Made by a program: the position numbers and the translations under genes | Shown: positions 10,381 through 50,318 of the stretch, one piece after another | Position numbering within the stretch: the stretch's first letter is position 1 | Layout of the letters: every line of letters begins with the position of its first letter | Assembly (NCBI GenBank): GCA_038043445.1 | Contig: JBBTBY010000058.1 | Location: 1 to 58,812 of the forward strand | Length of the DNA: 58,812 nucleotides | Direction: 5' to 3' | DNA from: Spirochaetota bacterium | GTDB taxonomy: Bacteria; Spirochaetota; Brachyspiria; Brachyspirales; JACRPF01 | The notes under the pieces: generated by a model | Told to the model about the DNA's origin: nothing | Seen by the model: only the letters and a program-made list of their open reading frames with translations | The model's database searches: none

Positions 10381-10397
10381 TGGCATGGTAGTTGCAT
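10381..10397 (+). promoter_or_regulatory. Sigma-54 (RpoN) promoter of the Cys4/chemotaxis operon
   Basis: TGGCATGGTAGTTGCAT matches the -24/-12 consensus, with GG and GC separated by 10 bases. It lies 36 bases before the first gene. Sigma-54 promoters need an AAA+ activator, and one is encoded at 31848-33221. Confidence 0.85.
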
Positions 10398-10432: not shown

Positions 10433-10600
10433 ATGAAATGCGAATGCTGCGGGAAACGTAAACGGCTCTTTTCAGCCAGGCGGTACACCTCAAGATTCCA
10501 ATTGCTTTGCGGCAGTTGCCTCCTGGACATTATCTTCAAGTCGGCATCGAAAGACGATATCTACACCATTACCGATGATGAGGGCGTTCATGCACGTTGA
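10433..10600 (+). CDS. Small Cys4 (double CxxC) protein, copy 1
   Basis: A 55-residue protein of no family I recognise. MKCECCGKRKRLF opens with CECC, and LLCGSC (second CxxC) follows about 20 residues later, the spacing of a small zinc ribbon; the C-terminus is acidic. The ATG at 10433 has AGGAG 5 bases upstream. It is the first gene after the sigma-54 promoter and overlaps the next gene by 11 bases. Two relatives are encoded at 10590-10745 and 33443-33616; all three share C-x2-C, a basic/aromatic middle, C-x2-C and then a hydrophobic/acidic stretch (LLDII, FIEII, FIELE). Metal binding is inferred. Confidence 0.75.
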   Translation: MKCECCGKRKRLFSARRYTSRFQLLCGSCLLDIIFKSASKDDIYTITDDEGVHAR

Positions 10601-10745
10601 AGAATGCGAGTGCTGCAAAAAGCTGACCTCGAAGCTGTACAACGTATCGCGGTACAGCGATCTGTATACCATGGTCTGCAGCGCTTGCTTCATCGAGATA
10701 ATCAAACGTATCCCGAACGATCTGGAAAGAACGAGGGGGGCATAA
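10590..10745 (+). CDS. Small Cys4 (double CxxC) protein, copy 2
   Basis: A 51-residue protein starting MHVEECECCKKLTSKLYNVS, with a second Cys pair in VCSACFIEII. It is a paralogue of the preceding gene, overlapping its end by 11 bases in another frame, which implies translational coupling. The stop is two bases before the next start. The CSxCFIE segment is almost the same as in the copy at 33443. Function is unknown; a zinc-binding adaptor or redox-sensitive partner of the receptors is a reasonable guess, but nothing in the sequence proves it. Confidence 0.75.
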   Translation: MHVEECECCKKLTSKLYNVSRYSDLYTMVCSACFIEIIKRIPNDLERTRGA

Positions 10746-10747
10746 CG

Positions 10748-11566
10748 ATGCGCGGATTATTCATGGGCATCCTCTACACGGTCTTCGGCGCCGCTGCGGT
10801 GAGCGCTTCGTTCATTCCCGACATACGCCTGCGTGTCGCCGTTATCGCCGCCATCGGCATTGCTGCCGGTGTGCCGGCAATAGCCGCTGCGGTGCATTGT
10901 GCGACACATGAAATGGCGTACCGCATGCTCATGAAAAAGAAAGAGGATATGGAAACATCGCTCAAGAAGAACATGTCCATCATCGCCGACAGCTACAGCG
11001 CCAAGATATCCGAGCTTTCCGTGCAATACACCGATGTCATCGGCGAGCATAAGGCGCGCATCGACGGGCTTACCGGGCTCATTGAACCCGTCGGCACCGT
11101 GCTTGCCGACAAGACGAAGGGATTGTCGGTGCTCATGAGCCAGCTCGATGCGGTCCGCGAACAGATTGAGACCACGGGCATGTCGCTCTCGAAGAATTTC
11201 ATGGAGATAACCATGAAGGCCCGCGGGCAGGCGAAGGCCGCCGCACAGATAGCGGAGCGCTATGCGGTTTCCGGTGCGCTTGAGCAAGGCGACCTTACCG
11301 CGCTTGCCGGCGGTACCGAAGCCCTCGCGAAGGACACGAGCGCGGTGATCATCGCCATGCAGTACCACGATATCATACGCCAGCGCGTGGAGCATGTGCT
11401 CATGCCGCTCGCGGAGTTCAGCGCCGAGATCGATGCGCTCGCCGATTCCATGGGTGCGGTCGCGACCGGAAAAAGCGATCACATCGCACGATGGCTGTCG
11501 CGTTTCTATACGATGAAGGAAGAAAAAGAGATAATGCATAAGACACTTGCGTCACAGCAGGATTAA
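10748..11566 (+). CDS. Membrane-anchored coiled-coil protein with a CheZ-like DxxxQ motif
   Basis: A 272-residue protein. Residues 1-50 form two membrane helices and the rest is predicted helical and coiled. IAMQYHDIIRQRVEHV (about residues 202-217) contains Asp208 and Gln212 with the i, i+4 spacing of the CheZ catalytic pair (D143/Q147 in E. coli). Proteins with a similar QxxD-R-Q segment are often annotated loosely as chemotaxis proteins. In this operon, directly before cheY, a CheY-P phosphatase role is attractive because no CheZ, CheC or CheX is otherwise visible. This is inference; overall similarity to CheZ is not obvious. Confidence 0.7.
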   Translation: MRGLFMGILYTVFGAAAVSASFIPDIRLRVAVIAAIGIAAGVPAIAAAVHCATHEMAYRMLMKKKEDMETSLKKNMSIIADSYSAKISELSVQYTDVIGEHKARIDGLTGLIEPVGTVLADKTKGLSVLMSQLDAVREQIETTGMSLSKNFMEITMKARGQAKAAAQIAERYAVSGALEQGDLTALAGGTEALAKDTSAVIIAMQYHDIIRQRVEHVLMPLAEFSAEIDALADSMGAVATGKSDHIARWLSRFYTMKEEKEIMHKTLASQQD

Positions 11567-11576
11567 GGAGGAGCAT

Positions 11577-11942
11577 ATGGGAAAGCAGATACTGATCGTC
11601 GATGATTCGCCCTCGATGCGGCAGATGGTGACCTTCACGCTCGCCGAGGACGGATTTGAGATCGTCGAGGCGGACAGCGGGACTGCCGCGCTCGATAAAC
11701 TTTCGGGCAACAATGCCAATCTTGTCATCACCGACATCAACATGCCCGGTATGAACGGCATCGATCTTATCAAGAACATCCGTTCGAACGATAAGCACAA
11801 GTTCACGCCGATCATCGTGCTTACGACGGAAAGCGAGACGGCGAAGCAGGACGAGGGCAAGAACGCGGGCGCCACCGCCTGGCTCGTAAAGCCGTTCACG
11901 CCGGAAAAGCTGAAAGAGACCGTGCACAAGGTCGTGGGATAG
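11577..11942 (+). CDS. cheY: Chemotaxis response regulator CheY
   Basis: A 121-residue single receiver domain. Phospho-acceptor Asp53 lies in VITDINMPGMNG, with Asp9/Asp10 near the N-terminus, Thr83 in VLTTES and Lys105 in LVKPFTP. It would carry the signal from CheA to the flagellar switch. The ATG at 11577 follows AAGGAGGA, an unusually strong ribosome-binding site. It lies between the CheZ-motif gene and a cheW-like gene in the sigma-54 operon. Confidence 0.95.
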   Translation: MGKQILIVDDSPSMRQMVTFTLAEDGFEIVEADSGTAALDKLSGNNANLVITDINMPGMNGIDLIKNIRSNDKHKFTPIIVLTTESETAKQDEGKNAGATAWLVKPFTPEKLKETVHKVVG

Positions 11943-11945
11943 GGG

Positions 11946-12419
11946 ATGCAGATGCACAGGGAATTCATACTCGGACGTGTCGGGCATATTACCGTCGCCG
12001 TCCCCGCGGAGCGGATACAGACGATAGTGCGTGATGGCGCGGCGCACGCGCTTGAGAATGCCGGCGAGCTTACGGCCATGATGGCTGTCATGAGCGGCAT
12101 CGCAGTGCCGATATTCGATGCACGTACCGCCGTGGGTCTTGCGCCGCATACGAGCGGACAGAAGCAGGAGATAGCGTTCGCCGGCGATACCCATAACCTG
12201 AGGATCGGCATCGCCTTTGACGAAGTCGTCGGCGTCCATATCTGTGAACAGAATGAGCTTTCGTCGACTGAGGCAGTCAAGCTTTCGCGCTATCCCTACA
12301 TCAGCGATGTATGCACGTATAACGGCGGCACGGTGCTTTTGCTCGACATCGACATGGTCATAGCGACACGGATACCGGAACTTTCGATAGCGGAGATCAA
12401 TCATCAGCATGCGGTATAA
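11946..12419 (+). CDS. Divergent CheW-like coupling protein
   Basis: A 157-residue protein with the outline of a CheW domain: an N-terminal strand (REFILGRVGHITVAVPAERI), IAVPIFDARTAVGL in the middle and LLLDIDMVI near the end. CheW couples receptors to CheA. It is shorter and more divergent than the two canonical CheW proteins at 18446 and 20791, lacking the INLRGNVVPVVDLR signature. It starts 3 bases after the cheY stop. It could be a receptor-specific adaptor for this operon's CheA. Confidence 0.75.
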   Translation: MQMHREFILGRVGHITVAVPAERIQTIVRDGAAHALENAGELTAMMAVMSGIAVPIFDARTAVGLAPHTSGQKQEIAFAGDTHNLRIGIAFDEVVGVHICEQNELSSTEAVKLSRYPYISDVCTYNGGTVLLLDIDMVIATRIPELSIAEINHQHAV

Positions 12420-12434: not shown

Positions 12435-12782
12435 ATGTTCACCATTGAAACGGCTCGAGAAGGAACAGCGACGATCGTGCGTGTGAAGGGAGAGGCGACC
12501 ATTGCGCATGCGAAGGAGATGCACGATGCATCCATCTCCGCAGTCATGGACAGCGATACCGTCATCATTGATACGGACGGGGTTACCGAGGCCGATCTCT
12601 CATTCCTGCAGTTCATCGATGCAACGCATAAGCTTCTTTTGAAGGACAAAAAGAGCATCGGCTTCTACCATGAGAGCATATCGCCTGCGGTGAAACTGGC
12701 GGCACAGAAGACGGGATATTTTACGCAGCATAGGTGCGTTGCATGCACGGGAAAGTGCCTCATGCATGCGCTCATAGCATGA
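12435..12782 (+). CDS. STAS-domain protein with a C-terminal cysteine motif
   Basis: A 115-residue protein with a STAS (anti-sigma antagonist-like) fold. VIIDTDGVTEADLSFLQFID at residues 43-62 corresponds to the conserved loop, with Ser56 near the phosphorylation position of SpoIIAA-like proteins. Stand-alone STAS proteins with a DLTFLQ-type loop occur in chemotaxis operons of several phyla. The C-terminal HRCVACTGKCLMHAL has three cysteines (101, 104, 108), not usual in STAS domains and echoing the Cys-rich proteins at the operon start. GAGGAGG lies before the ATG. Its partner is unknown; the downstream CheA is a candidate. Confidence 0.8.
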   Translation: MFTIETAREGTATIVRVKGEATIAHAKEMHDASISAVMDSDTVIIDTDGVTEADLSFLQFIDATHKLLLKDKKSIGFYHESISPAVKLAAQKTGYFTQHRCVACTGKCLMHALIA

Positions 12783-12833: not shown

Positions 12834-14933
12834 ATGGATACATCGAAATTCGGGGACACGTATCGAGAAGAGGCCTTCGAGCTCATAGCGCTGATAGAGC
12901 AGAAGCTCATCGATCTTGAACGGGCACCCACGGACCGCGACACCATCGACAGCATATTCCGCGCGCTGCATACGATAAAGGGCTCGGGCGCCATGTTCGG
13001 TTTTACGCGCATTTCCTCGTTCACGCATGAATTCGAGGCGCTCTTCGACGGCATGCGCAAGGGTGCCGTTACCGCGAACAAGGATATCATCGACTGTACG
13101 CTTTCCGCCGTGGACCACATAAGCCGTCTTTTGCGCGATGAGGATGTCCCCGAAGCGGAGACCGGTGCCCTTATCGAGCGACTGCGGTCGCAGAGCGGCG
13201 TTGGTACGGAGAAAAAAACGGCGCCGGCAGTGAAGGTACAGGCAGAGGACGTGGCGGGCGTTTCGGCAACCTATCGCATTCAGTTCAAGCCCGCCGAGGA
13301 TATTTTCAAACGCGGTGTGAACCTGGTGCCGATATTCGATGAATTGCGCCGGCTCGGCAATTGCCTCATCAGCGCGCATGCGCTCTCAGGCCCCCTCGAT
13401 GAGGTCGACCCGGAAAGCTGCTACAGTGCATGGACGATGATACTCTCCACGGACAAGGGTGAGAACGCGATACGCGATGCGTTCATCTTCGTCGAGGATT
13501 ATTCGGAAATAAGGATAGAGACGATAGACCGCGAGGGTTTCCTCACGGCCCCCGAGGAATACAAGAAGATAGGCGACATACTCGTCGAACGCGGCGATAT
13601 AACCGTCGATGAGCTTGAGGAGATACTCGCCGAGAAGAAGCTTTTCGGGGAGATAGCGCTCGCCAAGGGGTATGTAACGAAGGCGCAGCTTGACAGCGCG
13701 CTCGTGGAGCAGAAGTATGTGCGTACCGAGCGTGAGAAGCGGCGCGACGAGGCCTCACGCGCGACGATACGGGTAAAAAGCGAGAAGCTCGATTCGCTCG
13801 TGAACCTCGTGGGCGAGCTTGTGACGCTCCAGGCGCGTATTGCGCAGACGGCGGGGAAGAAAAAGGACCCCGAGTTCCGCTCCCTTGCGGAGGCGCTCGA
13901 GCGTCTGGCCAACGAGCTTCGCGAGAATTCCATGATGCTCCGCATGGTGCCCGTCGATGAGATGTTCAAGAGCTTTCACCGCCTGGTGCGCGACCTTTCG
14001 CAGGAGCTTAACAAGGATGTGGAGCTTGTTACGAAGGGTACGGAGACCGAGCTCGATAAGAACGTCATAGAATCGCTCAAAGACCCGCTCATGCATATCA
14101 TACGCAATTCCATCGATCATGGGCTTGAGACACCGGGAGAGCGTACCGCTCACGGAAAGGAAGCGAAGGGAACGGTGACACTCAGTGCATCGCATGAAGG
14201 CGCGCATGTGCTTATCTCCGTTACCGACGACGGCGCGGGGCTCAATCGCTCGAAGATACTCAAGAAAGCCATGGAACGCGGTCTCGTCAAGGAAGGTACT
14301 GACCTTACTGCCCGCGAAGTGCATGATCTCATTTTTCTTCCGGGATTCTCAACCGCAGAGAAAGCGACAAGCGTTTCCGGCCGCGGCGTGGGCATGGACG
14401 TGGTAAAGCGGAATGTCGAGAAGCTCCGGGGCGTGGTGGAAATAGACACGAAGCAGGGCGAGGGTACGACGATAAACCTCCGCATACCGTTGACGCTCGC
14501 TATCGTGGACGGGCTTCTTGCCCGCGTGGGCACGGACCATTTCATTCTTAATCTCTCGAACGTCGACGAGTGCGTGGATCTTACCGAGGAGATACTCGCC
14601 ACCGGCAACGGCAGTTCGCTCGTGAACATTCGCGGCGAGCTGATACCCTACATCAATCTCCGTGAGAAATTCGAGATAGCCGGGGCGAAACCGGAGATAG
14701 AGCGCATGCTCGTTACGAAGAACGGCGAAGGGCGCGTGGGACTTGTCGTCGATGATGTGATGGGCCAGCATCAGACGGTGATAAAAACGCTCGGGAGCGC
14801 GTTCAAGGGAATAGACGAAGTGACCGGCGCGACGATATTAGGCGACGGGACGGTGGCGCTCATTCTCGATGTGAACACCATAATCAGGAAAGAGATAGTG
14901 CGCGAGGAAGCGATGCATAGGGCTGCGGTATGA
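12834..14933 (+). CDS. cheA: Chemotaxis histidine kinase CheA
   Basis: About 699 residues from the ATG at 12834, which has AAGGCGGGG upstream; an ATG at 12795 would add 13 residues. Domains in order: HPt (His46 in LHTIKGSG); a mid-region of about residues 145-232 seen in other CheA proteins; an inserted pair of roughly 24-residue repeats at 246-293 resembling the T2SS GspE N-terminal repeat (IGDILVERGDIT, FGEIALAKGYVT); P3 dimerisation (LVNLVGELVT); ATPase with NSIDHG and GRGVGMDVV; and a CheW-like P5. It phosphorylates CheY. The repeat pair matches the 64-residue protein at 26740. It is the last gene of the sigma-54 operon, followed by a C-rich palindrome. Confidence 0.95.
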   Translation: MDTSKFGDTYREEAFELIALIEQKLIDLERAPTDRDTIDSIFRALHTIKGSGAMFGFTRISSFTHEFEALFDGMRKGAVTANKDIIDCTLSAVDHISRLLRDEDVPEAETGALIERLRSQSGVGTEKKTAPAVKVQAEDVAGVSATYRIQFKPAEDIFKRGVNLVPIFDELRRLGNCLISAHALSGPLDEVDPESCYSAWTMILSTDKGENAIRDAFIFVEDYSEIRIETIDREGFLTAPEEYKKIGDILVERGDITVDELEEILAEKKLFGEIALAKGYVTKAQLDSALVEQKYVRTEREKRRDEASRATIRVKSEKLDSLVNLVGELVTLQARIAQTAGKKKDPEFRSLAEALERLANELRENSMMLRMVPVDEMFKSFHRLVRDLSQELNKDVELVTKGTETELDKNVIESLKDPLMHIIRNSIDHGLETPGERTAHGKEAKGTVTLSASHEGAHVLISVTDDGAGLNRSKILKKAMERGLVKEGTDLTAREVHDLIFLPGFSTAEKATSVSGRGVGMDVVKRNVEKLRGVVEIDTKQGEGTTINLRIPLTLAIVDGLLARVGTDHFILNLSNVDECVDLTEEILATGNGSSLVNIRGELIPYINLREKFEIAGAKPEIERMLVTKNGEGRVGLVVDDVMGQHQTVIKTLGSAFKGIDEVTGATILGDGTVALILDVNTIIRKEIVREEAMHRAAV

Positions 14934-15618: not shown

Positions 15619-18360
15619 ATGAGAAACGGCACGGCATTTCACTTCACGATCATTCTCGCAACATCGTTCATCTTCGGCATGGCGCCGGCGGCCGCGGCGA
15701 AGGATCCGGCGAAGCCCAAGGCGGCACACGGCGCGGCGGCAGCGACGCATGTAACAGCCGTCGGTATATCGCCGGACGCGGCGCTCGCGAAACTGAAGGC
15801 GGGCAATTCCCGTTTCGTCAACGGCGGGCGCATGTATGCCAATCAGACGAAGGCGCGGCTCACCGAAACGGCGGAGAAGGGGCAGAAGCCGTATGTCACC
15901 ATACTCGGCTGCTCGGACTCGCGTGTGCCGCTTGAGCATATCTTCGACGCAGGCGTGGGCGAACTCTTCGTCATACGCGTGGCGGGTAATGTGGCCGACA
16001 CGGACGAGATCGGTTCCATCGAGTACGGTGTCGGTCATCTCAACACGCCGGTGCTGCTCGTGCTCGGTCACAGCAAATGCGGCGCGGTGACCGCGGTGGT
16101 CAAGGGCGATACGGTGCACGGGAGCATACCCGCGCTTGTCGAGAACATAGTCCCCGCGGCGGCAAAAGCGAAGCGGGAGCTTTCCGGGAAGGATACCGGC
16201 GCCGTTGTAGCGAAGGCCATAGAGCATAATGTGTGGCAGTCCATCGAAGATACATTCAGTAAAAGCGCTGAAGTGCGCGAGCTCGTAAAGGAGGGGAAGC
16301 TCGCCGTCATCGGTGCCGAATACAATATCGCTGCCGGCACGGTAAAATGGATGGGTCGTCATCCAAAGGAAAGCATGCTTCTTGCGTCTGAGAGCGCACA
16401 TGGCGCAGTGGCCGCAGGCGAAACAAGCGTTTCTCACTCTTCCTCCTCTTCCATTACATTTGCCGGTACTCCGGCAAATGTTGCGCATGCGAAAACCGAA
16501 GCGAAGCCGGCGGAGAAAAAGGGGAATACGTTCAATGTACTTCCTGTCATTCTCATACTAACCCTTATCGTAGCCGTACTGGCGATAGGATATTTCTTAT
16601 TAAAACGAGGAGGATTTCAAATGAAACTGGGAATTGGAGCAAAACTTATCGCGGGCTTTTCGGCGGTGTGTGCCATCGCTATAGCCATTGGGGTGTTCGG
16701 CATTGTACAGATGCGGACCATTGATGATGCGGATACGAGACTGTTCGAGAAAATGACAAAGCCGCTCGGCGAATTAGTGTACATGGTCGAGTACTTTCAG
16801 CGAACACGTGTTAATCTGCGTGAAATGTTCCTGCAAAAGGGACGCGACGCAGTGAAGTTCAACGAGGCGGCAGAAAAGATCGATGATTTCGAAAAACAGT
16901 TCGACAAGTACGCCGTTATGTACAAAGATTCTCTTATCGATAAAGAGGATGAACGTATGTACAATGAGCTCCTTGAGTCAAAAAAACACTTTTATGACGA
17001 TGCGCATGAGATAACCCGGCTTATAAGAGGCGGAGAAACTGCGGCGGCGATGGCCTTGATGCAAGGAGACGCGTTCAAGACGGCTGAGGCGATGAAAAAA
17101 GAGCTCGAAGAAATGACCGAGCTGAACATAAAAGCCGCGCATGATACTGCAGAACATAATACAGAAATTGCTAATTTCGCTTCTGCAATGATGATAGGCA
17201 CCTTGGCTGGCGGCACGCTCATTGCGCTGATCATCGGCATCGTGCTCACAATATCCATCACCGGGCCGCTTACGCTCGGTGTGAAATTCGCGAACACGAT
17301 AGCGGAAGGGAATCTCAAAACGCATCTTGAAGAGAAAGTACTCAAACGTTCGGATGAGATAGGCAATCTCGCCAAGGCGCTTGACGGCATGTTAAAGAAG
17401 CTCACCGAGATAGTGGCTACGGTCAAAACGGCATCCGGCAATGTGGCGAGCGGTAGCGAACAGCTTTCCACATCGAGCGAGGAGCTTTCGCAGGGTGCGA
17501 GCGAGCAGGCGGCAAGCGTGGAGGAAGTGTCTTCTTCCATAGAGGAGATGACGGCCACGATTCGCCAGAACGCGGACAATGCGAGCCAGACGGAGAAGAT
17601 AGCGGCAAAGAGCGCGACCGACGCCAAGGACGGCGGCAGCGCGGTGAAGGAAACCGTCAAGGCGATGAAGGAAATCGCTAATAAGGTGACCATCATCCAG
17701 GAGATAGCACGACAGACGAATCTCCTTTCGCTCAATGCATCGATAGAAGCAGCGCGCGCTGGTGAACACGGAAAAGGATTTGCGGTTGTTGCAAGCGAAG
17801 TGCAGAAACTCGCCGAGCGGAGCCAGCTCGCGGCGGGCGAGATAGGCGATCTTTCGAAGTCCAGCGTGGAAGTTGCCGAGCGTGCGGGAACAATGCTGGA
17901 AAAACTCGTGCCGGACATTCAGAAGACGGCGGAACTGGTTGCCGAGATAAACGCAGCAAGCAACGAGCAGAACAACGGCGCACAGCAGATAAACAATGCG
18001 GTGCAGCAGCTGAACAGCGTCGTGCAGCAGAACGCATCGGGTTCGGAAGAAGTGGCCTCCACGTCCGAAGAGCTCTCATCGCAGGCCATGCAGCTCCAGG
18101 AGACGATATCGTATTTCAAGATCGATGAGGACAAGATGAAGAAGGATACGATAGCGTGGACGCATAGCGAGAAGAAGCCGGCACATGCGGCAGCTATCCA
18201 TGACACGCTTCATCACGGGAACGGTCACGGCGGCAACGGGAATAAGCAGCATCAGCCTATCGTGAAAGAGCCGGTATTGGCGGGCGCAAAGCCGAAAGGC
18301 GCGACGATCGATATGACGAATGCGGGCGATGCCGAGGATAAGGAATTCCAGAAGTTTTGA
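15619..18360 (+). CDS. Predicted periplasmic beta-carbonic anhydrase fused to a methyl-accepting chemotaxis protein
   Basis: A 913-residue fusion. Residues 1-27 look like a Sec signal peptide (hydrophobic ILATSFIFG core, APAAAA cleavage region). Residues 50-250 are a complete beta-carbonic anhydrase: zinc ligands Cys98 (GCSDSR), His151 and Cys154 (LGHSKCGA), plus Asp100/Arg102. A linker leads to TM1 (306-328), a short basic cytoplasmic turn, TM2 (340-362), a helical periplasmic segment, TM3 (522-548), HAMP, and an MCP rod with the [20 protein letters not shown] tip (700-719). The topology puts both the enzyme and the sensor bundle outside. The tail has a His-rich linker and ends in EFQKF, a CheR-type tether. 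Strong ribosome-binding site GAGGAGG. An internal GAGGAGG before Met335 could also start a free MCP of 579 residues. A sensor for CO2/bicarbonate is the obvious hypothesis. Confidence 0.92.
16607..16623 (+). promoter_or_regulatory. Internal ribosome-binding site and ATG inside the fusion gene
   Basis: GAGGAGG at 16607-16613, then 7 bases, then ATG (codon 335). The residues from here ([13 protein letters not shown]) look like an ordinary MCP N-terminus, as in the next MCP ([13 protein letters not shown]). It suggests either a second translation start or the relic of a once separate MCP gene. Confidence 0.6.
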
Positions 18361-18445: not shown

Positions 18446-18952
18446 ATGGAAACAAAAAAACAGACGACGGAATCCCGGCAGTACCTGACATTCCTGCTCG
18501 ACAAGGAGATGTTCGCCTTCGAGGTATTGACGGTGAAGGAAGTGCTTGAGATAGCGAAGATAACACGGGTGCCGCGCACGCCGAAATTCATGCCGGGGGT
18601 GATCAATCTCCGCGGGAATGTGGTGCCGGTGGTCGACTTGCGTCTCAAGTTCGATCTCCCGGTGATGGACAGGACGGTGGATACCGCCATCATCATCGTG
18701 GAAACGGAGTACGACGGCGAGAAGATAGTCATCGGTGCGCTCATCGATGCGGTGAAGGAAGTGATACGCCTCGATGAAACGCAGGTGGAAGCGCCGCCCA
18801 AGGTGGGGATGAACGTGAGCGGCGAATACATTCAGGCGATAGGCAAGAAAGGGAATGATTTCATCATTATCCTATCTGCCGCGCATGTGTTCTCGGAAAA
18901 AGAGCTTGAGTATGCGAAGGAAGCTTCGAGAGAGGAAGCGGTAGCGGTGTAG
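18446..18952 (+). CDS. cheW: Chemotaxis coupling protein CheW, copy 1
   Basis: A 168-residue canonical CheW. MFAFEVLTVKEVLEI, INLRGNVVPVVDLRLKF and KVGMNVSGEYIQAIGKKG are the family landmarks. It bridges receptor tips and CheA in the cytoplasmic array. AAGGAG lies 6 bases before the ATG. It follows the carbonic anhydrase-MCP gene across a palindrome and is probably co-transcribed with it. The copy at 20791-21297 differs in protein by one residue (Ser versus Leu near the C-terminus) and by about a dozen bases, with a long identical core. Confidence 0.97.
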   Translation: METKKQTTESRQYLTFLLDKEMFAFEVLTVKEVLEIAKITRVPRTPKFMPGVINLRGNVVPVVDLRLKFDLPVMDRTVDTAIIIVETEYDGEKIVIGALIDAVKEVIRLDETQVEAPPKVGMNVSGEYIQAIGKKGNDFIIILSAAHVFSEKELEYAKEASREEAVAV

Positions 18953-20790: not shown

Positions 20791-21297
20791 ATGGAAACAA
20801 AAAAACAAACGACGGAATCCCGGCAGTACCTGACATTCCTCCTCGACAAGGAGATGTTCGCCTTCGAGGTGCTGACGGTGAAGGAAGTGCTTGAGATAGC
20901 GAAGATAACACGGGTGCCGCGCACGCCGAAATTCATGCCGGGGGTGATCAATCTCCGCGGGAATGTGGTGCCGGTGGTCGACTTGCGTCTCAAGTTCGAT
21001 CTCCCGGTGATGGACAGGACGGTGGATACCGCCATCATCATCGTGGAAACGGAGTACGACGGCGAGAAGATAGTCATCGGTGCGCTCATCGATGCGGTGA
21101 AGGAAGTGATACGCCTCGATGAAACGCAGGTGGAAGCGCCGCCCAAGGTGGGCATGAACGTGAGCGGCGAATACATACAGGCGATAGGGAAGAAAGGGAA
21201 TGATTTCATCATCATCCTTTCGGCCGCGCATGTGTTCTCGGAGAAGGAGCTTGAGTATGCGAAGGAAGCTTTGAGAGAGGAAGCGGTAGCGGTGTAG
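20791..21297 (+). CDS. cheW: Chemotaxis coupling protein CheW, copy 2
   Basis: A 168-residue CheW identical to copy 1 except Leu for Ser near the C-terminus. Nucleotide differences cluster at the two ends, while a central stretch of some 270 bases is identical, which suggests recent duplication or gene conversion. AGAGGAG lies before the ATG, 12 bases after the MCP stop, so it is co-transcribed with that MCP. Its product should be interchangeable with copy 1. Confidence 0.97.
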   Translation: METKKQTTESRQYLTFLLDKEMFAFEVLTVKEVLEIAKITRVPRTPKFMPGVINLRGNVVPVVDLRLKFDLPVMDRTVDTAIIIVETEYDGEKIVIGALIDAVKEVIRLDETQVEAPPKVGMNVSGEYIQAIGKKGNDFIIILSAAHVFSEKELEYAKEALREEAVAV

Positions 21298-30139: not shown

Positions 30140-31876
30140 ATGGCTGCATCGTTCGATAACTATGCGAAAATAGTCGCGGAGCTCCTTGCAGCCCCCGGTG
30201 TCGAATCGATATGCGACTATCTCGGAGAGATCGTGAAGCGCGAATCCGGGGCGGATTATCTTGTCGTCGGTATCTATGACCCGGTAAGCGGGATGAACCA
30301 ACCCCGTGCGGTGCTCGGCTTGGGCGATCGTATGAAGAGCATCATGGGCAGACTTCGAAGCGATCCGCTTAAGGTCCGATTCGGAAGCATTCCTGCCGAT
30401 ACAATGCCGGATCCGGAATTATTCCGGCGCCATATCGAAAAGGTAGAAGGCGGCATCGGCATATTGATGAAAGGGAAAGTGAACAGATCGGTATGTGCTG
30501 CAGCTGAAGCAATGCTCGGCATCACCGGCGTATGGGGAATGGGATTGTTCTCGGGTAATAATGTGTATGGCAGCGTTTCGTTCATCTTCTGCCAAGGACG
30601 AACGCCGGAAAAATCGTCATTCATCGAGTCGCTCGTGAATATGGCCGCGTTGGTGCTGGAACGCAGGATCGCGGAGTACGACAGCAGACAGGATGAGCAG
30701 AAACAGGTCGCCGATCTGCTTGAGCAAAGCCGCGAACGCTATCGCGAGCTTGTGGAAACCCTGCCCGTTACGATCTTTGAAACGGATATTCGGGGGAATG
30801 TTACGTATGCAAATCCGGCGGGGTACTCGCTCTTCGGCTACGACCCCGACGATGTGGCGAATGGGCTGTCGATATTCACGATGCTCGCACCGGAGGAGAT
30901 CGAGAAAGCGAGGGAACGCGTCGGCCGTATCGTGTCGGGGGCTGTTACGGATACAACGAATGATTATTCGATAGTGCGAAAAGACGGTGCGCCCCGGCGG
31001 GTGCGGATACAGGCAACGATCGTCAGGAACGACAGCACCCCCGTCGGCATACGCGGCATAGCACTGGACATCACCGAAGTTGAATCGGCCGAACAGATGC
31101 GCCGGCAGCACGAGCAGATGCTCATACAGTCCGATAAGCTCATGTCGCTCGGCGAGATGGCCGCGGGACTTGCACATGAGATCAATCAGCCGTTGACCGT
31201 CATATCGCTCGCGTCGGCGAACGCTGAGTATGGTGCCGATGACCGTCACCCCGATCTGCCCAGGGTGCGCGAGAAGCTTATCGCCGTTCGGCATGCGGTC
31301 GCGAGGATACGCACCCTCATAGACCACGTGCGCGCGTTCTCCCGCGATGAAGAGTTACGGGGTACAACGTTCAGCGTGCATGAGGCCATAGAGAACGCCC
31401 GTGCATTGTTCTCTGCGCAGTATCGCGAGCATGAGATCGACGTCAGTACCGATCTCGGCTGCACCGTCCCGACGGCGATGGGGAACAGTTTTCGTTTTGA
31501 ACAGGTCATCATCAACCTGCTCTCCAACGCGAAATATGCGATCGATGAAAAACGAGCGTCAGCAGATGCAGCATATCGCGGAACGATACAGATCAGGACC
31601 GGTGAAACGAAGAATCACATCTATGCCGAAATGAATGACAATGGATGCGGCATGAGCGCAGCGGTATTGGGAAGGATATTTGAGCCGTTCTTTACGACGA
31701 AACCGGTATCGCGCGGAACGGGGCTGGGGTTGTCCATATGCTACGCGATAATCCGCGACATGAACGGCGAGATCACCGCGACGAGCGAGGTCGGTGCAGG
31801 AACGACGTTCATCATCATTCTCCCCAAACAGGGGGCGGAGGCTGTCCATGGTTACATTGACGATACTCGTCATTGA
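30140..31876 (+). CDS. Cytoplasmic sensor histidine kinase (GAF-PAS), partner of the NtrC-type regulator
   Basis: A 578-residue soluble kinase with no membrane segments. Residues 1-185 look like a GAF-type domain, 200-320 are PAS (TIFETDIRGNVTYANPAG), a short coil leads to HisKA with phospho-acceptor His346 in AAGLAHEINQPL, and the HATPase has LLSNAKYA and GTGLGLSICY. It should phosphorylate the response regulator encoded next, whose start lies inside its 3' end (29-base overlap). The signal sensed is unknown; a cytoplasmic GAF-PAS pair suggests a redox, gas or small-molecule ligand. No clear Shine-Dalgarno sequence precedes the ATG. Confidence 0.92.
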   Translation: MAASFDNYAKIVAELLAAPGVESICDYLGEIVKRESGADYLVVGIYDPVSGMNQPRAVLGLGDRMKSIMGRLRSDPLKVRFGSIPADTMPDPELFRRHIEKVEGGIGILMKGKVNRSVCAAAEAMLGITGVWGMGLFSGNNVYGSVSFIFCQGRTPEKSSFIESLVNMAALVLERRIAEYDSRQDEQKQVADLLEQSRERYRELVETLPVTIFETDIRGNVTYANPAGYSLFGYDPDDVANGLSIFTMLAPEEIEKARERVGRIVSGAVTDTTNDYSIVRKDGAPRRVRIQATIVRNDSTPVGIRGIALDITEVESAEQMRRQHEQMLIQSDKLMSLGEMAAGLAHEINQPLTVISLASANAEYGADDRHPDLPRVREKLIAVRHAVARIRTLIDHVRAFSRDEELRGTTFSVHEAIENARALFSAQYREHEIDVSTDLGCTVPTAMGNSFRFEQVIINLLSNAKYAIDEKRASADAAYRGTIQIRTGETKNHIYAEMNDNGCGMSAAVLGRIFEPFFTTKPVSRGTGLGLSICYAIIRDMNGEITATSEVGAGTTFIIILPKQGAEAVHGYIDDTRH

Positions 31877-33221
31877 CGATGAAGCGGAGATACGGCGGGA
31901 GCTTTCCGACTTTCTGCGCACGCGCGGCCATGCGGTGCTCGATGTCGGACTTCCGTCGGAAGCGTTCGCCCTCATGCACGAGCGAAAGGTCGACGTGGTG
32001 GTCATCGACATCAAACTTCCAGAAATGAACGGCTTCGCCGTGCTCGATCGCATCAGAGAGGAATTCCCCGGCATCGAATCCATCATGATCACCGGACACG
32101 GCGACAGTACGACCGTGCTTGAGGCATTGCGTCACGGCGCATTCGATTTTTTCCACAAGCCGCTCATGAGCGAGGACATTGAAGCGGCGCTCATGCGCAC
32201 ACGCGCATATATTTCGGTGAAGAGCAGGGCTGAGCGCATGACGCGGGAACGGAACATGCTTGCCGCCATCTTTGACCGCACGGTGGGGGACATCGTGGGC
32301 GAAAGCGCGTCGATCCGCGCCGTCGTTGACCTGGCGGTGAAAGCGGCATCCGCCCCCGGCGCCGCGGTCATGATCACCGGCGAGAGCGGCACGGGAAAAG
32401 AACTTGTCGCGAGGGCCATGCATTCAGCGAGCGATCGCCGTGCCGGTGCGTTCCATACATTGAACTGCTCGGCGATACCATTGGGTCTTATCGAAAGCGA
32501 ATTGTTCGGCCATAAGAAAGGTTCGTTCACCGGGGCTATCGAGGACAGGATCGGGTGCTTTGAGGCGGCGGACGGCGGCACACTGTTCCTTGATGAGATC
32601 GGCGATATGCCGCTCGAGGCGCAGGCAAAGCTCCTGCGTGCGCTTGAGAACCGCGTCATACGACGCGTCGGGGAACAGAAGGATATTGCAGTCGATGTTC
32701 GCGTGGTTTCCGCAACGAACAAGGATGTCCGAAAGGCTATCGCCGAGGGATCGTTCCGGCAGGACCTGTACTATCGGCTCAATGCATTCGTGATAACCGT
32801 ACCGCCGCTGCGTGAACGCCCGGAAGACATCCCTTTACTGGTGGACCATTTTGCCGCACATTATGCGATGCAGCTGAAGCGCGCCGTACCCGTGATAGAG
32901 CGGTCGGCATACGATCTTCTCGCACGGTACTCATTCCCCGGGAACATTCGCGAATTGAGGAACATGGTGGAACGCGCGATGATACTCTGCGATGGAACAT
33001 CGATTACCGATGCCTATTTCTCTGCCGGCGAGGGACCATCGCCTTTGCGCAATGAACACCCCGCGGACGATGTGTTTGACCTGGAAGCCGTGGAAAAGAA
33101 TGCGATCATACGCGCACTGAGGAGAACGGAAGGGAATCAAGGTGGCGCGGCAAGGCTCCTTGGCCTCAGCGATTCGACGCTCAGCAGAAAGATCCATAGA
33201 TACGGCATCGAATACAAATAG
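31848..33221 (+). CDS. NtrC-family sigma-54-dependent response regulator
   Basis: A 457-residue activator. Receiver with Asp54 (VVIDIKLPEMNG), AAA+ domain at about 140-370 with Walker A GESGTGKE and Walker B GGTLFLDEIGD, and a Fis-type helix-turn-helix at the C-terminus (GNQGGAARLLGLSDSTLSRK). The sigma-54 contact loop reads GSFTGA; most family members have GAFTGA. The start at 31848 has GGAGG 6 bases upstream and overlaps the kinase gene. Directly downstream lies a sigma-54 promoter, and a very similar one precedes the operon at 10433; both have matching upstream palindromes, making these its likely targets. Confidence 0.95.
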   Translation: MVTLTILVIDDEAEIRRELSDFLRTRGHAVLDVGLPSEAFALMHERKVDVVVIDIKLPEMNGFAVLDRIREEFPGIESIMITGHGDSTTVLEALRHGAFDFFHKPLMSEDIEAALMRTRAYISVKSRAERMTRERNMLAAIFDRTVGDIVGESASIRAVVDLAVKAASAPGAAVMITGESGTGKELVARAMHSASDRRAGAFHTLNCSAIPLGLIESELFGHKKGSFTGAIEDRIGCFEAADGGTLFLDEIGDMPLEAQAKLLRALENRVIRRVGEQKDIAVDVRVVSATNKDVRKAIAEGSFRQDLYYRLNAFVITVPPLRERPEDIPLLVDHFAAHYAMQLKRAVPVIERSAYDLLARYSFPGNIRELRNMVERAMILCDGTSITDAYFSAGEGPSPLRNEHPADDVFDLEAVEKNAIIRALRRTEGNQGGAARLLGLSDSTLSRKIHRYGIEYK

Positions 33222-33345: not shown

Positions 33346-33362
33346 TGGCACGGTACTTGCAC
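33346..33362 (+). promoter_or_regulatory. Sigma-54 (RpoN) promoter of the Cys4/CZB-MCP operon
   Basis: TGGCACGGTACTTGCAC, a -24/-12 match with GG-N10-GC spacing. Extended by three bases it agrees with the promoter at 10381 at 17 of 20 positions. It is 81 bases before the Cys4 gene. Confidence 0.87.
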
Positions 33363-33442: not shown

Positions 33443-33616
33443 ATGGACCAGGCATGTGACCGGTGCGAGAGATCGACGACACGCCTGTATGACGTGACGG
33501 CGAAAAACGATCGATTCAGGCTCGTCTGCAGCAAATGTTTCATTGAGCTTGAGCTCGGGAAAAAAGCCGCGGGGCATGATGCGAAACCCGCACGGGATGA
33601 CGAGGTGAAGGAGTGA
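33443..33616 (+). CDS. Small Cys4 (double CxxC) protein, copy 3
   Basis: 57 residues from the ATG at 33443: MDQACDRCERSTTRLYDVTA, then LVCSKCFIELEL and a charged tail. The Cys pairs, the RLYDV/KLYNV segment and CSxCFIE align with the protein at 10590. A longer frame begins at 33401, but the similarity starts here. It is the first gene after a sigma-54 promoter and is followed by an MCP with a zinc-type sensor domain, as its relatives are followed by chemotaxis genes. No known function. Confidence 0.75.
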   Translation: MDQACDRCERSTTRLYDVTAKNDRFRLVCSKCFIELELGKKAAGHDAKPARDDEVKE

Positions 33617-33668
33617 TAATGTATTCCATCCATAGGCACACGAATGCTGCACTCGCAGGGAGGACACG

Positions 33669-35576
33669 ATGAAACTTACCATTGGGAAAAAACTTGCGTC
33701 CGGTTTCGGCACCGTGCTCCTGCTCATGACGGGCATTACCACAGGGACATTCATTTCGATCCGCATGATCGTCGATGCGGATAAAAAAGCGACCGATGCG
33801 AAACAGCTGTCGAGCGAAATGCTGCAGCGCGAACGTGATCACCTGAATTGGACGCTGCAATTGAACAGGGACCTGATGGACAGGAAGCAGAAGACGATCA
33901 CCGTGCAGATTGATCCGTCGCAGTGTGCGTTCGGGAAATGGTACTACAGCGAAAAGCGCACGAAAACCGAGGCCATGAGCTCTCGACTTGCGCCGCTTTT
34001 CAGAGAGATAGAATCGCCGCACACAAAACTGCATGAGACCGCACAGCGGATAGCGGAATTGCGGAAGAGCGGAGAAGAACAGGAAGCACGCGCTGTGTAC
34101 CTTGCGCAGACGCAGGCGCATCTTCAGGATGTTCGGCGTATCCTCAATGATACACGGACGGCAGCCGACGAGTACGCCGCCGCGATGGAAACCGAGAAAC
34201 AAGCGAAGACCTCGCTGATACAGGTCGCGGGCAACAGCGGGAGTATTCTCGCGATCCTCATCGGCATAGCCTTTGCGGTGCTCTTGACGCGCAGCATTGC
34301 AGCACCGTTACGGAAAGGGGCGGCGTTCGCACATGAGATCGCGCAAGGCAACCTGACGGTGATGGTCGACGAAGCCATGCTCCGGCGTGCGGACGAAATA
34401 GGCCTCCTGTCGATCGCGTTCAGGGATATGATCGAGAAGCTACGCACTGTTGTGGAGTCTGTTTCCGCCGCGTCCGCGAATATGGCGACCGGCAGTGAAC
34501 AGCTTTCAAGTTCGTCCGTCGTGCTTTCGCAGGGGGCGGGGGGACAGGCAGCAAGCGTTGAAGAGGTATCGTCTTCAATGGAGGAGGTCGCGTCCACGAT
34601 CGAGGAAATGTCATCCAGCGTGGAGGAAGTGTCGTCGTCGATCGAAGAAACGACATCGTCGATCGAGGAGATGTCATCGACGATAGCGCAGAACGCGGAC
34701 AATGCCAGCCAGACCGAGTCCATCGCAAAGAAAGCCGCCGCCGATGCGAAAGCGGGCGGTGATGCGGTGAATTCCACGGTGCGCTCCATGAAGGAGATAT
34801 CGGACAAGGTAAAGATAATCCAGGAGATTGCGCGTCAGACCAATCTTCTTTCGCTCAATGCATCGATAGAGGCGGCTCGTGCGGGCGAGCACGGGAAGGG
34901 GTTCGCTGTGGTCGCGAGCGAAGTGCAGAAGCTCGCAGACAGAAGTCAGCGTGCCGCCGCTGAGATCGAACAGCTGTCGAAATCAAGCGTCGAGGTTTCA
35001 CAGCATGCCGGAGAACTCCTCGTGAAACTTGTTCCGGATATTCAGCGGACGGCGGAATTGGTCGCCGAGATAAGCGCGGCAAGCGCCGAGCAGAGCAATG
35101 GTGCAAAACAGATCAATATGTCCGTTCAGCAGGTGAACACGGTCGTGCAGCAGATAAGCGCATCCGCGCAGCAGATAAGCGGGGCGGTGCAGCAGGTGTC
35201 GTCGGCGGTGCAGAACGTGAGCCAGTCAGCCCAGAATACCGCCTCGAGCTCCGAAGAGGTGGCGTCAACAGCCGAGGAACTGTCCGCGCAGGCGGGGCAG
35301 CTTATGGAAGCGATAGGATATTTCCGAGTGGAGAATTCGCACGCGCAGGAGCGGCACAGTGCACAGTACGGGAAGCAGATATTGACCGGCAGGAAAGAAC
35401 AAGCGGTACTGGAACATCATGCGCCGCCGCCCGCAGGGAACAGCGATGCGGTAAAGAAAATGCCCGCGCAGGTACGTGTCAGGGAAGCGGGGGCGATGCA
35501 GAAAAAAAGCGGCGGGTTCCAGATCGATATGAAGAGTGCGGACGCCGCCGAGGATGCGGAGTATAAGAAATTCTGA
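33669..35576 (+). CDS. Methyl-accepting chemotaxis protein with extracytoplasmic CZB-like zinc domain
   Basis: A 635-residue receptor. TM1 about 8-33, sensor region 34-188, TM2 189-208, HAMP, signalling rod with tip [20 protein letters not shown]. The sensor contains the CZB pattern: His58 (DHLNW), Cys86 (QCAFGKWYY), His118 and His122 ([10 protein letters not shown]), the set that binds zinc in CZB proteins. CZB domains are usually cytoplasmic; here the domain lies between the two membrane helices. The rod has six consecutive heptads ([14 protein letters not shown] and so on) where its relatives have two, matched by six on the return arm. It ends in EYKKF, a possible CheR tether. Confidence 0.92.
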
Positions 35577-49199: not shown

Positions 49200-49630
49200 T
49201 GATATGCGACAAAGCCGAGACATTGAAAGCCAAGGGGTTGCCGGTAACCGTACAGCGTATCGCGATACTTGAGTACATGGACGGTAATCTCGATCATCCA
49301 TCGGCGGATGATATCCATGCCGCTTTGCATGAAAAATACGCAAGCATTTCCCGGGCTACTATTTACAATAATCTGGTAACGCTCGTTTCATCAGGCCTTC
49401 TCCAGGAAATAGACATCGATCCTGAAAAGGCCCATTACGACAGCAATATAAGTACGCATCATCATTTCTACTGCACGGTGTGCAAGCATCTGTACGATGT
49501 GGCCATCGCCTGCCCCCAGCTTTCGCATCGGGACGTCGACGGCCACCGTATCGAGCAGGTCCAGGGCTATTTTCTCGGGACATGCAGGACATGCCTTGCG
49601 GCGGGAACGGGGGGAGGACACCATGCCTGA
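49199..49630 (+). CDS. perR: Fur-family regulator, PerR-like
   Basis: A 143-residue Fur-family repressor: winged helix at residues 1-80 (ISRATIYNNLVTLVSSGLL), then the metal-binding half. Aligned by eye with B. subtilis PerR, the HHHFYCTVCKHLYD segment has Asp (residue 100) at the position of PerR Asp104, where Fur has Glu; His33 corresponds to the oxidised His37. Structural zinc cysteines are 92, 95, 129 and 132. This points to a peroxide sensor rather than an iron sensor, by comparison only. It overlaps the glycosylase gene by 8 bases, a logical oxidative-damage partner. Confidence 0.85.
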   Translation: MICDKAETLKAKGLPVTVQRIAILEYMDGNLDHPSADDIHAALHEKYASISRATIYNNLVTLVSSGLLQEIDIDPEKAHYDSNISTHHHFYCTVCKHLYDVAIACPQLSHRDVDGHRIEQVQGYFLGTCRTCLAAGTGGGHHA

Positions 49631-50318
49631 ATTACCGGAACTGCAGATAATCATCAATCAGCTCAAAGAGGAACTGCAATACGCGTATATCGATTCCGTC
49701 GTCGCGCGCGATGCGTCGATCAGCGAGGATATCGGTCTTATCAGCGGCCAGAAGGTGATCGAGATAGTCCGTCATGACAAGGCGATATACTTCCAGCTTT
49801 CACGCGATGCGTTCATGCTGTCACTCGGTGAGAACGCGCAGCTCATGATGAGCACGGATAATGCGCGCATTGCGCATACGCGTGTCTTGTTCAGGACAAC
49901 GCGGGGCGATCTGTACCTCGTCGATAAGAGCCGCATGAGCACGGTCACCGTGGTGAGCAAGGATGAGACCTATGTCCCCTTCGCCGGCGTCGATCCCCTG
50001 ACGAAGCAGTTCAACTTCAAGATGCTTTACCGCAATCTGAAAGCGTCAAAGGCGAACATCGGCGATTTCCTGCGCAAGGAAAAGGTCGTCGCGGGTCTCG
50101 GGATACGCTACACCGGGAAGATACTTCGCGCATCACGGCTGCCCGCGCGTCACCCGGCCAACCGCATCCCGCGCTCGGCTGCGGAGAAGCTCTTTTGGAA
50201 CATCAAGAACATACTGCGTGATGCGATAATCAAAAAAAGCCCGAAGGCCCTCGACATGCTCGATGAATTGGACGGGCTCTACGACATGGGTATTCCGGCG
50301 GAAAAAGCGCCTCACTGA
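49623..50318 (+). CDS. Fpg/Nei-type DNA glycosylase lacking the zinc finger
   Basis: A 231-residue relative of formamidopyrimidine-DNA glycosylase. MPELPEL supplies the catalytic Pro2 and Glu3, Lys53 in VRHDKAIYFQL matches the conserved lysine, and a helix-two-turn-helix follows at about 160-200 (VVAGLGIRYTGKILRASRLP). The C-terminal zinc finger of canonical Fpg (about 270 residues, four Cys) is missing; the chain ends with a short charged helix. The start overlaps the PerR-like gene, implying co-induction on oxidative stress. Confidence 0.85.
   Translation: MPELPELQIIINQLKEELQYAYIDSVVARDASISEDIGLISGQKVIEIVRHDKAIYFQLSRDAFMLSLGENAQLMMSTDNARIAHTRVLFRTTRGDLYLVDKSRMSTVTVVSKDETYVPFAGVDPLTKQFNFKMLYRNLKASKANIGDFLRKEKVVAGLGIRYTGKILRASRLPARHPANRIPRSAAEKLFWNIKNILRDAIIKKSPKALDMLDELDGLYDMGIPAEKAPH

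Follow-up and report, generated by a model that had tools for sequence, protein, structure and literature searches.

The closest functional precedent for the genes described here is archaeal. The zinc-finger u-proteins of Haloferax, which we cite as a known comparison and do not claim as homologues (PMC6562870), are shorter than 70 aa, form a C4 finger from CxxC motifs and occur in many copies per genome, and u-protein deletion leads to loss of swarming together with reduced mot/che expression. Some of the C4 u-proteins bind no zinc (PMC10716476). The Cys4 microproteins reported below share size, motif and copy number with the u-proteins, but the latter have not been described as sigma-54 operon leaders or in che operons, and HVO_0758, which has an N-terminal helix, was reported to be without bacterial orthologues. 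How a zinc finger of 50-60 residues controls motility and chemotaxis is the question that Haloferax poses, and the Cys4 proteins are concrete bacterial candidates for addressing it. The N-terminal zinc-binding domain of ClpX, a small domain that binds adaptors and dimerises, has the same C4 topology (CxxC knuckle, hairpin, CxxC, helix) as is predicted for Cys4, but is fused to an AAA+ ATPase, whereas the Cys4 proteins are encoded by free-standing ORFs of 51-57 aa. GATA fingers (PF00320), including cases of protein recognition (1y0j, 2vus), are the best short structural neighbours, but their eukaryotic DNA-binding tail is missing in Cys4.

The window, a 58,812-nucleotide stretch of a Spirochaetota genome, holds three Cys4 genes, all on the forward strand. 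A class I gene with an AGGAG Shine-Dalgarno sequence (10433-10600, 55 aa, MKCECCGKRKRLFSARRYTSRFQLLCGSCLLDIIFKSASKDDIYTITDDEGVHAR) is the first of a pair, of which a class II gene (10590-10745, 51 aa, MHVEECECCKKLTSKLYNVSRYSDLYTMVCSACFIEIIKRIPNDLERTRGA) is the second; another (33443-33616, 57 aa, MDQACDRCERSTTRLYDVTAKNDRFRLVCSKCFIELELGKKAAGHDAKPARDDEVKE) stands singly. The products share two CxxC motifs spaced as C-x2-C-x19/20-C-x2-C, and each is below 70 aa with, in the models, one finger. When short ORFs in all six frames were scanned for C-x2-C-x12-24-C-x2-C followed by F, L, I, V or M, exactly these three were returned, bearing out the shared motif and the hydrophobic follow-on residue noted in a preliminary description of this DNA. 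The basic middle segment claimed there holds for the 55-aa protein (core charge +6) but not for the 51-aa (+1) or 57-aa (+2) proteins, and the claim that each gene comes first after a sigma-54 promoter applies to the 55-aa and 57-aa proteins, the 51-aa protein being second in its operon. As described, chemotaxis genes lie downstream of both window units. The original observation is thus confirmed, and is extended by the family-wide comparisons that follow.

Cys4 constitutes a new family, absent from the protein-family databases searched, within the known class of zinc-finger microproteins. Pfam and NCBIfam returned no family above cut-off for its members among the matches listed, in keeping with the earlier suspicion that no known family applied, and literature searches found no bacterial family of this kind described. 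The uncharacterised C4 domains DUF7685 and DUF7573 match 11 of 19 members (best E 9e-5) and nine of 19 (best E 8e-4) weakly, with scores below the curated cut-offs in the genome search and among the matches listed; for DUF7685 (PF24734), the best scores were 19.4 bits among the genome's own members and 18.2 in the genome search, against a cut-off of 27. PF00320 matches one of 19 members, at E 0.15, below cut-off. Homology to the ClpX zinc domain was tried and rejected at the level of sequence: PF06689 (zf-C4_ClpX) is absent from Pfam scans of the members and matches clpX alone in the window's genome, and the profile-profile probability was 18%.

Seven Cys4 genes are present in the window's genome (G000, 5.1 Mb) and 14 in a groundwater Spirochaetes MAG (G001), the sole other genome found of the same taxonomic family; 19 of these 21 loci match the family profile at E 1e-15 to 1e-23. 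Beyond these two genomes, a profile search of 393 Spirochaetota returned at E <= 1e-4 a distant spirochaete alone (G040), which has two copies with the extended profile, and about 30 genomes of the same order yielded no member. Matches in G121 and G131 were discounted as weak (E 0.004-0.008) and partial. A narrow-motif scan of the genome collection recovered the sister MAG only, although distant relatives in other phyla could escape so narrow a motif. The family has expanded by duplication within one spirochaete lineage, a rare uncultured group with many copies. A phage or plasmid origin was considered and set aside, as no match was found among viral contigs, phages or plasmids, and presence or absence of sigma-54 was rejected as the cause of the narrow distribution, given that 58 of 61 relatives encode rpoN.

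In five syntenic or near-syntenic pairs, dN is 0.28-0.41 whereas dS is 1.5-1.8 or saturated, which indicates protein-coding genes under purifying selection; dN is higher in a GGDEF pair (0.50) and an Fpg pair (0.79). Together with the window scan, the profile E-values and the distribution over 393 genomes, these ratios rule out chance C4 ORFs. Only the initiating methionine and the four cysteines are invariant across the family. A poorly resolved tree of the core tends to separate first-of-pair members (class I, CGSCLL) from last-of-pair members (class II, CKKLT...CSxCFLEI), and since this clustering exceeds that of most shuffles, the pair is probably old. Extended Cys4 proteins, with a C-terminal extension, a further CxxC (TKT[IV]CR.C) and 8-10 cysteines in total, are encoded in two GGDEF-EAL units (L054:8926-9225 and L020:13854-14102).

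The AlphaFold model of the class II protein, built with alignment rows from the window and L071/L072 only, has a CxxC knuckle, a short beta hairpin and a second CxxC that opens a helix, with residues 1-40 modelled at a pLDDT of about 90, and the class I model has the same topology. A CxxC at the helix N-terminus after knuckle and hairpin is the arrangement of a treble clef, and the Cys4 proteins are accordingly modelled as a likely treble-clef-like C4 finger of the GATA/ClpX-ZBD type, consistent with the zinc-ribbon guess in the preliminary description. No solved structure related by sequence was found. The PDB neighbours (FYVE, ZAD, GATA and the ClpX zinc-binding domain) are weak matches of a kind that treble clefs give generally, with unspecific Z-scores of 4.2 or less; in Foldseek/VIA, GATA fingers aligned over 36 residues (rmsd 2.4, Z 2.9) and the ClpX domain scored Z 2.4-2.5. 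The four invariant cysteines and the predicted fold suggest that the proteins probably bind zinc. It was also proposed that they serve as redox or zinc sensors, or as metal chaperones, reporting to the receptors. The C4 site itself is compatible with such a role, as is the CZB zinc-binding domain which accompanies a HAMP domain in the chemoreceptor encoded behind the third Cys4 gene (33669-35576, forward strand); but this site appears closed and structural, with no extra conserved ligand and no exposed conserved thiol, and CZB was present in just one of the units checked, such that we consider this role highly improbable.

Charge and gene spacing bear on whether the fingers might instead bind RNA at the head of the operon and govern translation of the next cistron, in the manner of Com of phage Mu, a translational activator. 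The paired window genes overlap by 11 bases (10433-10600 and 10590-10745), a mere 2 bases separate the stop of the second from the start of the gene at 10748, and the class I proteins of three units (C58:10k, C62 and C14) are fairly basic, with core charges of +5 to +6. Against this, the single Cys4 gene at 33443-33616 is uncoupled from the next gene by a 52-base gap (33617-33668), and most cores are near neutral, as is the family average, which disfavours nucleic acid binding as a common role. We regard RNA binding as improbable on these grounds.

Cys4 genes keep more constant company with sigma-54 promoters than with any chemotaxis cargo. The window's two strict -24/-12 sites both precede Cys4 units: TGGCATGGTAGTTGCA (10381-10396, forward strand) lies 52 bases upstream of the pair's first ATG, and TGGCACGGTACTTGCA (33346-33361, forward strand), a perfect match, lies 97 bases before that of the single gene. 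All five Cys4 units in G000, which encodes rpoN, have a strict site at promoter distance, from a total of 15 strict sites in 5.1 Mb. The Poisson estimate for five of 15 sites falling at these units is about 1e-16, a value to be read in light of the shared ancestry of the units, which are paralogous and hence not independent events. Elsewhere in the genome, matches to the strict pattern are no commoner than in a reversed control, and further strict sites in G000 precede genes that, as read from sequence, concern PII/ammonium transport and glutamate synthase and so belong to the usual sigma-54 regulon. Across G000, G001 and G040, 11-12 of 16 units (five, nine and two, respectively) have a sigma-54 site. 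Scores of at least 0.89 were obtained for C58:10k, C58:33k, C27:126k, C27:118k and C62 in G000, for C12:103k, C12:247k, C18:313k, C14:151k and C1:284k in G001, and for C114 in G040; the site at C10:345k is weaker (0.81), and none was detected at C18:126k, C10:327k and C1:550k in G001 or at C52 in G040. A response regulator gene intervenes between site and Cys4 pair in two units (C62 and C14), and the order in G040 is sigma-54 site, cheD, Cys4, rrf2.

Candidate activators of these promoters are often close at hand. Seven of 20 genes for sigma-54 activators (bEBPs) directly precede a Cys4 unit, in most cases accompanied by a kinase gene, as in the window, where a PAS histidine kinase (30140-31876, forward strand) and an NtrC-type response regulator (31848-33221, forward strand; PF00158, E 1e-67) come before the single Cys4 gene. 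This arrangement raises the possibility of feedback on the sigma-54 input, in which Cys4 would bind the kinase, the NtrC-type activator or the sigma-54 polymerase and thereby limit or sharpen transcription of its own operon. The first cistron is the position from which feedback would be fastest, and the promoter stays constant while the cargo changes among chemotaxis, c-di-GMP and glycosylase operons. Yet about half of the units are missing an adjacent bEBP, and four (C18:126k, C10:327k, C1:550k and C52) are without a detectable sigma-54 site; feedback on the input is thus a tentative proposal. If true, it would add a new type of component to sigma-54 circuits.

Chemotaxis is the commonest cargo. 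Immediately behind the window pair, on the same strand, are genes for a membrane protein (10748-11566), a CheY-type response regulator (11577-11942; VDD, ITDINMPG, TTES, VKP) that is 75-81% identical to syntenic genes in L021, L022, L024 and L028, a CheW-like protein (11952-12419; PF01584, E 4e-13), a STAS-domain protein (12435-12782) and CheA (12834-14933; Hpt, H-kinase_dim, HATPase and CheW domains). The order Cys4(I)-Cys4(II)-[MCP/CheZ-like]-CheY-STAS-CheA-MCP/CheW is kept in the window and in L021, L022, L024 and L028. The MCP/CheZ-like membrane protein, with further copies at L021:5909-7174, L022:7978-9255, L024:7688-8926 and L028:9400-10689, belongs to a family that combines a TM segment with an MCP signalling hairpin, missing from the window copy, and carries a FYTM..EK motif and an invariant C-terminal HDIIRQRVEHV whose D-x3-Q is reminiscent of CheZ.

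The preliminary description had named adaptors among several possible roles at the receptors and proposed a profile search that takes in chemotaxis neighbourhoods; the profile searches made here find a real family in which eight of 16 units are followed or accompanied by chemotaxis genes and the remainder are not. Docking of the Cys4 pair into the chemosensory array encoded downstream would account for the conserved synteny, for the five of eight cheA operons in G000 and G001 that begin with Cys4, and for the Cys4 gene that follows a sigma-54 site and cheD in the distant G040. The tie is frequent but not exclusive, half of the units having other cargo or none and three of the eight cheA operons lacking Cys4, and a dedicated array adaptor is possible, if somewhat doubtful. 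Two units (L020 and L054) head GGDEF-EAL, HATPase/STAS-like and SpoIIE genes, Fpg-type glycosylase genes lie near two (L020, with DUF4912, and L023), and the remaining four have other cargo or none that is clear, some standing alone. The earlier interpretation is in this respect partly supported: leadership of sigma-54 operons is the main signature, and chemotaxis is one cargo among several.

The Fpg-type proteins are short (218-235 aa) and without a zinc-finger domain match; the genes are at 49623-50318 in the window, L020:4353-5009 and L023:7491-8198, and two of the three have a Cys4 unit upstream of them. Replacement of a lost Fpg finger by Cys4 in trans would be a speculative reading, as the window copy, which is also without a finger match, has no Cys4 neighbour.

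A constant C4 finger, varied cargo and a paralogue for each unit fit a regulatory subunit that binds a protein encoded in its own unit. We therefore favour, with chances that we judge to be about even, co-expressed protein-binding zinc-finger microproteins, often a divergent pair, which regulate the signalling module of their unit or its activator. Under this model, each unit would be switched on by sigma-54 polymerase together with an NtrC-type activator, whose gene often sits immediately upstream alongside that of its kinase, and would make one to three Cys4 proteins ahead of the signalling module. The small rigid finger would then dock on a cognate partner from its own unit and tune the module, in a way comparable to the recognition of protein partners by GATA fingers or by the zinc-binding domain of ClpX, and distinct class I and class II versions, found in most chemotaxis units, would perhaps act as a heterodimer. 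The presence of a separate, divergent paralogue in every unit suggests cognate partners. We infer the protein ligand, the identity of the partner and the sign of the effect from this arrangement, and both feedback on the input and docking into the array would be sub-cases of such protein-binding regulation: constancy of promoter and activator favours the input side (kinase or activator), and the preserved gene order that includes the MCP/CheZ-like protein and CheA favours the output side (the array or other signalling proteins). More speculatively, and in our view rather unlikely as a general account, each sigma-54/NtrC-type two-component circuit may own a zinc-finger microprotein as its feedback subunit, duplicated with the circuit and put to use again with cargo for chemotaxis, c-di-GMP signalling and repair-like functions. 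The present work defines a microprotein family missing from the family databases searched, with an unusually tight promoter signature.

Two further features of the window concern its chemotaxis genes. The receptor downstream of cheA (15619-18360, forward strand) carries an N-terminal beta-carbonic anhydrase domain (Pro_CA) ahead of a 4HB sensor, HAMP and MCP signalling domains; a second such receptor at L022:2218-4950 (reverse strand) indicates conservation in two genera, and the domain content is suggestive of a possible CO2/bicarbonate-linked receptor. Lastly, two CheW genes (18446-18952 and 20791-21297) that flank a receptor gene are 97% identical in DNA and at 167 of 168 protein positions, which on sequence comparison marks them as products of a recent duplication or conversion.
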